Source: Candidatus Endomicrobiellum incisitermitis (lineage in GTDB: Bacteria > Elusimicrobiota > Endomicrobiia > Endomicrobiales > Endomicrobiaceae). From it: a stretch of 64,000 bases of DNA. The notes under the pieces were generated by a model. That model was not told the DNA's origin, made no database searches, and was given only the letters and a program-made list of their open reading frames with translations. Where the stretch lies: assembly GCA_031275795.1 (NCBI GenBank), contig JAISOG010000039.1:40583-104582 (forward strand), given 5' to 3'. A program made the position numbers and the translations under genes. Positions 39,697 to 41,553 of the stretch are shown in pieces. Each line of letters begins with the position of its first letter. Position 1 is the stretch's first letter.

Positions 39697-39854
39697 GTAT
39701 ATAACTAGCGCGTTTTTGAAAATTATAATATTCTAATGTCTTCAAAAAGATCTCTTAAAAAGTCCAAAATAGTAGAGCTTTATAATCAATTCGTGTTTTG
39801 CAATAAATGCTCTCTTGCGTTGATAAAATTTGTGCGCGGTGAGGAGGTTTAAGA

Positions 39855-40112
39855 TTGGCAGAAATTAAGAAAACACCTCAAGAAAGACATATCGGCAGAA
39901 TGGCTTTGTATAACAGGACTATAATCCAAGCTATCTCTGACAAATTAGATATTTCAAATGGTGAGGCATTGCAAAAATTTTATAATTCCGAGCTTTATAT
40001 CCAGTATTCTGATGAAGATACAAAGGTTTGGCATTTCAGCTGCAAGGCCCTTGCTGACATGCTTGCCTATGAATTACGGCATGGTAAGCTTGTAATACCA
40101 TCTGAGGTGTAA
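39855..40112 (+). CDS. DUF3791-like small protein, first of a pair
   Basis: This 85-residue protein starts with TTG at 39855, supported by a strong GAGGAGG site at 39841-39847. Its middle (IIQAISDKLDISNGEALQKFYN) and the following SELYIQYSDEDTKVWHFSC-KALADML segment resemble proteins that accompany DUF3791/DUF3990 genes. DUF3990 proteins are related to ADP-ribosyltransferases, and the small partners are suspected antitoxins. No DUF3990 gene follows here. The 3-bp spacing to the next small gene indicates one transcript. Confidence 0.55.
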   Translation: MAEIKKTPQERHIGRMALYNRTIIQAISDKLDISNGEALQKFYNSELYIQYSDEDTKVWHFSCKALADMLAYELRHGKLVIPSEV

Positions 40113-40115
40113 ATT

Positions 40116-40331
40116 TTGAAAAATTACAATAACATTGAATTCGTTACATTTTGCATAGAGATTTATGGAGGGGCAAAAGATATTAGTGGCAGGGAAGCTT
40201 ACGAAAAATTAAATTCAACAGGTGCATTAGATTATATAGATGAATGTTACGAAGGGTTGCATGTAGAAACCAATGATGGGATAGTTTGGAATATTGATGA
40301 ATTTATTAATAACAATCAAGTTACTGTTTAA
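40116..40331 (+). CDS. DUF3791-like small protein, second of a pair
   Basis: This 71-residue protein has the DUF3791 layout: EFVTFCIEIYGGAKDISGREAYEKL, then STGALDYIDECYEGLHVE and a C-terminal WNIDEFINNNQ. DUF3791 proteins are short helical proteins found beside DUF3990 (ADP-ribosyltransferase-like) proteins. It lies 3 bp downstream of the other small gene; both are plus strand. No toxin-like partner is visible in the following 400 bp, so the pair may be what remains of a larger addiction or effector module. Confidence 0.65.
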   Translation: MKNYNNIEFVTFCIEIYGGAKDISGREAYEKLNSTGALDYIDECYEGLHVETNDGIVWNIDEFINNNQVTV

Positions 40332-40717
40332 TTCTATGTGTGTATTCACCTTTGCAGCATAAGTTTATTAGAGCCAATGCTCGCGTTTCCATAGGTTGGC
40401 ATAGTGTTTCTTCTGAACGAAAAATCCTTGTAAAATAAGGCATTTTATAGGTTGGACTGAATTGTTGCGAAAAATAAATCCCAAAGGCGTAGTCAAACAC
40501 TCTATACATTGTTTTAGGTCTGAATCGACCTCTTCCCATGTTTAGCATGAACTAATTTGAAAGACTATTTGGAAATTGGTGTAATTAATCTATCATGCTG
40601 ATATTAAAAATTTTACAAAAATTCAAAAATGCAACCTTAAGATGTAAATTTACTGAAAAAAATTACAGCTTTGGTGATACATATATTTTATGATAGAAAT
40701 TTGATTTATGACGAGGC
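40332..40717. other. Gap without a supportable gene
   Basis: Between the DUF3791-like gene and the next promoter I see no convincing gene. A reverse-strand frame (40321-40548) encodes a basic, aromatic-rich peptide with no ribosome site and no family. The slightly higher GC of 40330-40560 suggests decayed coding DNA, possibly the missing partner of the preceding gene pair; this is only a guess. Confidence 0.4.
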
Positions 40718-40746
40718 TTGACATGTTTTTGGATTTGTGTTACAAT
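40718..40746 (+). promoter_or_regulatory. Near-perfect sigma70 promoter, start codon at predicted TSS
   Basis: TTGACA (40718-40723), exactly 17 bp, TACAAT (40741-40746): -35 perfect, -10 five of six. The ATG of the next gene is at 40755, only 8 bp after the -10 box, so transcription would begin within 0-2 bases of the start codon, giving a leaderless or nearly leaderless mRNA. Confidence 0.75.
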
Positions 40747-40754
40747 CTGAAAAA

Positions 40755-41060
40755 ATGAAATCTATTGAATTGATATTAACTATTTCAGTTATTGTTTTAA
40801 CTATCTCTGTAGTTATTGGAGTAGTTTGTTTTGTTTTAACATTGATCAATATAAGGAAAGCGGTAGTACAAATTGAAATAGTAGCTAATAAAATTAATAT
40901 TGAACTTGATCTTATAAATAAGGTTTCTTATAAAGTTGCTTCGATAACTGAAAAGGTTTCATCTCCATTTGTTTCAATGATTTCTCTTCTTTTTTATGCT
41001 GTCTCTAGTATTAATAAAAAGAAAAAACAAGCGCAAGGAGAAAAAAATGAGCGACAATAA
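40755..41060 (+). CDS. Small membrane protein, DUF948-like
   Basis: This 101-residue protein has one N-terminal membrane segment (LTISVIVLTISVVIGVVCFVLTLINI) then an amphipathic helix (KINIELDLINKVSYKVASITEKV) and a basic tail. This layout is that of DUF948 / YtxG-like proteins, which are often paired with a YtxH protein, as here. Function is unknown; stress or envelope roles are suspected in Firmicutes. A GTG 18 bp upstream overlaps the -10 box, so ATG 40755 is the start. No ribosome site is possible if the promoter is used as predicted. The 3' end overlaps the next gene by 14 bp. Confidence 0.65.
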   Translation: MKSIELILTISVIVLTISVVIGVVCFVLTLINIRKAVVQIEIVANKINIELDLINKVSYKVASITEKVSSPFVSMISLLFYAVSSINKKKKQAQGEKNERQ

Positions 41061-41331
41061 AGATACATTCTTTGCTTTTCTTTTAGGTGGAATAGTTGGT
41101 GCAGCTATTGGTATTTTATATGCTCCTAAATCCGGGAAAGAAACTAGAAAAAATATTAAGAGATTAAGTGAAGATATTGTTGACAATATGAATGATTTTA
41201 GTGAGGATATTGCTAAAACTGGAAAGAGAATTTATGAAGAAGGTCGTGAAAAAGTTTTGTCCGGCAAAGATAAAATAAGTGAAGCTTTTGACGCTGGTAA
41301 AAAGGCTTTTGAAAAATGTAGTAAAAGTTAG
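41047..41331 (+). CDS. YtxH-like membrane-associated protein
   Basis: This 94-residue protein shows the YtxH signature: a glycine-rich membrane segment followed by a proline-lysine turn (FAFLLGGIVGAAIGILYAPKS, trimmed, then GKETRKNI). A long charged amphipathic helix (LSEDIVDNMNDFSEDIAKT, EAFDAGKKAFEK) follows. The start is ATG 41047 after an aaggag site; an ATG 51 bp upstream lies inside the previous gene. The 14-bp overlap with the DUF948-like gene signals translational coupling. The paired family occurrence supports both calls. Biochemical role unknown. Confidence 0.8.
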   Translation: MSDNKDTFFAFLLGGIVGAAIGILYAPKSGKETRKNIKRLSEDIVDNMNDFSEDIAKTGKRIYEEGREKVLSGKDKISEAFDAGKKAFEKCSKS

Positions 41332-41345
41332 TTTAAGTATTTTAT

Positions 41346-41418
41346 GCTGAGGTAGCTCAGTTGGTAGAGCACAGGTCTGAAAAACCTGGTGTCGACAGTT
41401 CGATTCTGTCCCTCAGCA
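41346..41418 (+). tRNA. tRNA-Phe (anticodon GAA)
   Basis: The acceptor GCTGAGG pairs with CCTCAGC, discriminator A. D-arm gctcagttggtagagc, anticodon stem caggt/acctg with loop ctgaaaa (anticodon GAA), T-arm acagttcgattctgt. CCA is not encoded. Lies 13 bp before tRNA-Thr, 14 bp after the YtxH gene; probably cotranscribed with the neighbours. Confidence 0.96.
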
Positions 41419-41431
41419 TATTTCTATTTGT

Positions 41432-41504
41432 GCCGATGTAGCTCAGTTGGTAGAGCAATTGCTTCGTAAGCAATGGGTCGGAGGTTCAAATCCTCTCATC
41501 GGCT
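41432..41504 (+). tRNA. tRNA-Thr (anticodon CGT)
   Basis: The acceptor GCCGATG pairs with CATCGGC, discriminator T. The anticodon stem ttgct/agcaa carries loop tcgta- with anticodon CGT, and the T-arm is gaggttcaaatcctc. CCA is not encoded. Followed after about 20 bp by a hairpin terminator. Confidence 0.95.
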
Positions 41505-41526: not shown

Positions 41527-41553
41527 CTTCGCCTATTATGGCGAGGTTTTTTT
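41527..41553 (+). terminator. Rho-independent terminator after the tRNA pair
   Basis: The stem cttcgcc (41527-41533) pairs with ggcgagg (41540-41546), with one G-T pair, over a 6-nt loop, followed by a run of seven T. It ends the tRNA-Phe/tRNA-Thr transcript. Confidence 0.85.

Follow-up and report, generated by a model that had tools for sequence, protein, structure and literature searches.

The DUF948-like gene at 40755–41060 of the window (the whole 64,000-nucleotide stretch of Candidatus Endomicrobiellum incisitermitis DNA analysed here) raises the question of how translation begins at an ATG positioned directly behind a near-consensus promoter. The initial annotation suggested that the mRNA is leaderless, and we have examined the sequence context of the start codon, its conservation in relatives, and the occurrence of the same layout elsewhere in the genome and the phylum.

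A promoter adjoining a start codon

The features of the promoter and first gene are as follows.

40718–40723, + strand: −35 hexamer TTGACA, seen in the sequence; exact TTGACA in each of the 19 genus orthologues whose start could be placed
40738–40739, + strand: extended −10 dinucleotide TG, seen in the sequence; same position in most orthologues
40741–40746, + strand: −10 hexamer TACAAT, seen in the sequence; TATAAT, TAAAAT, TAGAAT and similar in orthologues
40747–40754, + strand: 8-bp spacer between the −10 and the start codon; 6–9 bp long in 19 orthologues, with bases not conserved
40755–41060, + strand: DUF948-like small membrane protein of 101 residues with a predicted leaderless ATG start (open reading frame, profile search and orthologue alignment)

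TTGACA and TACAAT are separated by 17 bp and lie where the initial annotation placed them, with the extended −10 TG in addition. The start codon occupies 40755–40757, and the 8 bp between it and the −10 box fall within the ~6–9 bp spacing of TA-led genes. No Shine-Dalgarno sequence is seen upstream of this ATG or upstream of the start codon in any genus orthologue, so that both the spacing and the missing ribosome site were correctly described. Transcription from sigma-70 promoters usually starts ~6–9 bp past the −10, and the RNA would thus be expected to begin at approximately 40752–40755, with a leader of 0–3 nt; because the 3′ end of the spacer is AAAAA, the transcription start of this gene may fall anywhere within ~4 nt. 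An Rfam search of the region matched only the tRNAs and no RNA-family 5′ region, and a structured 5′ region was rejected because the predicted folding of the first 60 nt is no more favourable than that of shuffled sequences.

The further proposal that this is the strongest promoter match in the window stands only in part. Five sites score 11/12 (40718+, 56178+, 19874+, 17914−, and 56392−), and it is the TG extension, present at 40718 alone, that sets this one apart from the four others. Dinucleotide-shuffled windows contain a mean of 4.5 sites at 11/12, and TTGACA-N17-TATAAT with no more than one mismatch is observed three times in the window against 1.7 expected. We therefore rejected the motif score alone as evidence, since chance yields equal scores, and the case rests instead on the position of the 40718 promoter before the gene and on its conservation, both of which exceed chance.

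Conservation of the promoter-to-start distance

The DUF948-like protein can be aligned in 20 genomes of the Endomicrobium genus, several of the relatives being represented by incomplete genomes. Comparison of the promoter-to-start distance in relatives, a check proposed with the initial annotation, bore out its expectation: in 19 of the 20 orthologues a promoter composed of TTGACA and a TANNNT-type −10 (one is TAAAAC) ends 6–9 bp before the start codon, with no Shine-Dalgarno sequence. The distance is 8 bp in seven of these, 7 bp in nine, 6 bp in one, and 9 bp in two, and the start codon is ATG in 17 and GTG in two. Eighteen of the promoters were listed by script; the script chose a different pair at L014, where TTGACA-N17-TAGCAT-N8-ATG was identified by eye. 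Protein identity among these orthologues falls to 34–40%, and sequence identity drops to background in the spacer between the −10 and the start codon as well as 5′ of the −35. The spacer bases vary between most lineages (e.g. CTGAAAAA, TCTCTCT, TTTTTCC, and GTTCGACT), and their divergence at constant length indicates that it is the distance that is kept and not the sequence.

These comparisons bear on two other explanations. One is that the gene is read from a longer transcript initiated at an unseen promoter further upstream, the near-consensus promoter then having a secondary role or matching only by chance; the 386 bp upstream, which are poor in genes, would accommodate this, and matches this good are expected by chance in such an A+T-rich window. 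However, the 19 genus orthologues retain the promoter and its spacing from the start codon but not the upstream sequence, and a longer transcript would still present no Shine-Dalgarno sequence before the ATG, so that we consider this explanation improbable, although an additional leadered transcript may arise from an upstream promoter. The other is that the annotated ATG is wrong and that translation starts at GTG 40737 or at a TTG at codon 5, both of which are in frame. But GTG 40737 lies between the −35 and the −10, would be absent from the transcript of this promoter, and is not conserved; downstream in-frame starts with a Shine-Dalgarno sequence are limited among the genus orthologues to two, at codon 71 of L016 and within the rearranged L018; and the alignment shows conserved N-terminal residues from the ATG onward. 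Internal and upstream start codons were rejected on these grounds, as either not conserved or lacking a Shine-Dalgarno sequence, and misannotation of the start is very improbable indeed.

The twentieth genus orthologue, L018 (G021:C92), lacks the homologous N-terminus. The homologous promoter is missing as well, and unrelated sequence lies 5′ of the remaining gene, perhaps reflecting an insertion or an assembly break. Separately, in several relatives (L006–L011) the promoter spacer carries GGGGAGG (or similar) followed by TTTATGTTATAA between the −35 and the −10, an arrangement resembling a Shine-Dalgarno sequence with a two-codon ORF but which is possibly a coincidence.

Outside of the genus the arrangement is different. 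None of six aligned DUF948-like orthologues has a leaderless-type promoter, and in five of the six (L019, L020, L023, L027, and L028) a purine-rich Shine-Dalgarno-like run precedes the start codon, as identified by script or by eye; the sixth, L030, has only a G-rich run before the start. The simplest reading of these sequences is that a change from Shine-Dalgarno-led to leaderless initiation occurred no later than the base of the Endomicrobium genus.

The predicted operon and its tRNAs

Downstream of the first gene are the following features.

41035–41040, + strand: Shine-Dalgarno sequence AAGGAG of the YtxH gene, seen in the sequence within the 3′ end of the DUF948-like gene
41047–41331, + strand: YtxH-family protein of 94 residues (open reading frame and profile search), with a 14-nt overlap with the DUF948-like gene
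41345–41419, + strand: tRNA-Phe (GAA), with Rfam among the evidence
41432–41504, + strand: tRNA-Thr (CGT), with Rfam among the evidence
41527–41546, + strand: intrinsic terminator-like hairpin with a T run, seen in the sequence; probable operon end

The description of the locus as a membrane-protein/YtxH unit leading into tRNA-Phe and tRNA-Thr is sound, in that both tRNAs are real and YtxH (PF12732) passes the Pfam cut-off with 69.5 bits against a gathering threshold of 37.5 (E = 3.4e-19). The assignment of the first gene is weaker. The window protein scores 12.1 bits against DUF948 (PF06103), for which the gathering threshold is 37.2 (E = 0.23), and the orthologues tested do better, with a best score of 32.4 bits and E-values down to 1e-7; because these too are below the Pfam cut-off, we refer to the gene as 'DUF948-like'. 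The initial annotation also had leaderless translation affecting the operon, and this can be retained for the first gene but not for YtxH, which has its own AAGGAG. A purine-rich Shine-Dalgarno-like run precedes YtxH in nearly all relatives, so that the DUF948-like gene appears to be the sole member of the unit to have changed its way of starting.

The tRNAs suggest a further explanation, in which the strong promoter serves them and the leaderless first gene is incidental, its protein being little translated. tRNA operons are often driven by strong promoters, and the linkage of tRNA-Phe and tRNA-Thr to the operon both inside and outside of the genus is in keeping with this. Nonetheless, the first gene shows conservation at the protein level, a tRNA promoter has no need of the conserved 6–9 bp distance, and the same layout is present in four other families that lack this operon. 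We regard this explanation as unlikely, and it is compatible with leaderless translation of the first gene rather than exclusive of it.

In nearly all of the genus orthologues tRNA-Phe is directly 3′ of the operon, mostly together with tRNA-Thr, and the DUF948-like/YtxH/tRNA-Phe/tRNA-Thr linkage (loci L002–L028) extends past the genus, to several orthologues from other orders and classes of Elusimicrobiota. NrdR, encoded beside the operon, has 97–76% identity to the NrdR proteins of termite-gut Endomicrobium and Candidatus Endomicrobiellum, which assigns the window to a genome of Endomicrobium type within the Elusimicrobiota. Between uvrB and the promoter, ~1 kb (39697–40717) contains only small candidate ORFs (39855–40112 and 40116–40331).

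Recurrence of the layout in the genome and the phylum

A search for other leaderless operons, also proposed with the initial annotation, shows that this gene is one of a class. An exact pattern search of the same genome gives 25 promoter-ATG pairs at 4–10 bp, which include seven further real genes: those for SecG, an M23 peptidase, DprA, PBP1A, a DUF4015 putative glycosyl hydrolase, a Rep_3 replication initiator, and a ZapB-like protein. Across sampled genome stretches totalling 460 kb, with gene starts taken from simple ORF calling, promoters scoring at least 11/12 occur at 2.0 per position at 6–9 bp from the start codon versus ~0.13 at other distances up to 80, and the 6–9 bp excess comprises seven distinct genes (Poisson P ~1e-6). 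A promoter threshold of 9/12 blurs this peak, and the size of the leaderless class is therefore not estimable from weak promoters. The Rep_3 gene is of a plasmid type, with its promoter 8 bp before the ATG (L127; G000:C28:6703–6742), and secG (L118; G000:C13:32316–32357) has two consecutive ATGs, 6 and 9 bp past the −10, of which close relatives keep the first.

Orthologues within the genus share the leaderless layout for secG (20/23), the M23 peptidase (12/12), dprA (14/14), and pbp1A (19/25); outside of the genus it is found for secG (5/7), the M23 peptidase (4/15), and pbp1A (2/5), and for no dprA, where the outside group includes a broken genus copy (L230). In several Endomicrobium genomes (L230 in G019, as well as G007, G012, G001, and G015) dprA appears either to be interrupted by stop codons or to be a fragment.

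A pyrimidine precedes the start codon at 71 of 95 leaderless-type starts in five families, versus 30 of 77 Shine-Dalgarno-led starts in this genome. RNA polymerase prefers to start at a purine preceded by a pyrimidine, and the bias suggests that transcription of many of these genes begins on the purine of the start codon itself.

With this geometry kept in 19 of 20 orthologues, the Shine-Dalgarno sequence absent, alternative starts unsupported, and a peak of strong promoters at the same distance in the genome sample, the sequence comparisons support the proposal of the initial annotation, and leaderless translation is the best explanation for the DUF948-like gene and is very probable. The promoter at 40718–40746 would be the main promoter of a unit of four co-transcribed genes (DUF948-like, YtxH, tRNA-Phe, and tRNA-Thr) followed by the terminator. 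RNA polymerase would initiate on the first base of the ATG or no more than ~3 nt ahead of it, such that the 5′ end of the mRNA is essentially the start codon, and the ribosome and initiator tRNA would recognize this 5′-terminal AUG. YtxH would be translated from its own overlapping Shine-Dalgarno sequence, and the two tRNAs would be cut from the 3′ part of the transcript.

An excess of the promoter/ATG layout is supported phylum-wide. Among 60 Elusimicrobiota genomes, exact TTGACA/TANAAT promoters are paired with an ATG 399 times at 6–9 bp versus 158 times at 16–19 bp, these being counts of promoter-ATG pairs in which the ATGs are not individually confirmed as gene starts; reversed-pattern controls give 17 and 22, respectively. 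More pairs are at 6–9 bp than at 16–19 bp in 47 of the genomes, and fewer in nine. In the genome samples, G025 lacks a distance peak when the stronger promoter threshold is applied, and the peaks of G044 and G059 are weak, although the exact-consensus count over the 60 genomes shows the excess.

Actinobacteria, Deinococcus-Thermus, and other groups are well known to have leaderless genes (PMC3160421, PMC12340547). TA-led genes have a −10 box TANNNT whose first T is ~12 bp from the start codon and no Shine-Dalgarno sequence, and are expected to lack a 5′ leader (Zheng et al. 2011, PMC3160421); the DUF948-like gene is alike in all three respects. That survey does not name Elusimicrobia among the groups with leaderless genes, although its 'Other Bacteria' (8/20 genomes) might hold one. 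The −10-motif genes of Deinococcus-Thermus mostly lack a classical −35 and comprise about one third of genes (PMC12340547), whereas the Endomicrobium class is a small fraction of genes and has a near-perfect TTGACA, such promoters being those that our search targeted. In open-access full text we found no paper in which Endomicrobium is combined with leaderless genes, or an 'Endomicrobi-' name with transcription start sites, and passages of papers that combine 'leaderless' and 'Elusimicrobi-' contain no report of leaderless genes for the phylum. The extension to Elusimicrobiota appears to be unreported.

A broader reading, which we offer as speculative and doubtful, is that leaderless genes with full −35/−10 promoters form a phylum-wide class enriched for envelope and secretion genes (putatively SecG, PBP1A, the M23 peptidase, and DUF948-like/YtxH) and putatively co-regulating them, e.g. 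by way of ribosome or initiation-factor state. The leaderless reading of the DUF948-like gene and its counterparts would place the Elusimicrobiota, whose RNA has received very little study, among the phyla that conserve a set of leaderless genes. It offers specific orthologous genes in which switches between Shine-Dalgarno-led and leaderless initiation may be traced, and a practical rule by which the start codons of Elusimicrobiota genomes can be corrected.
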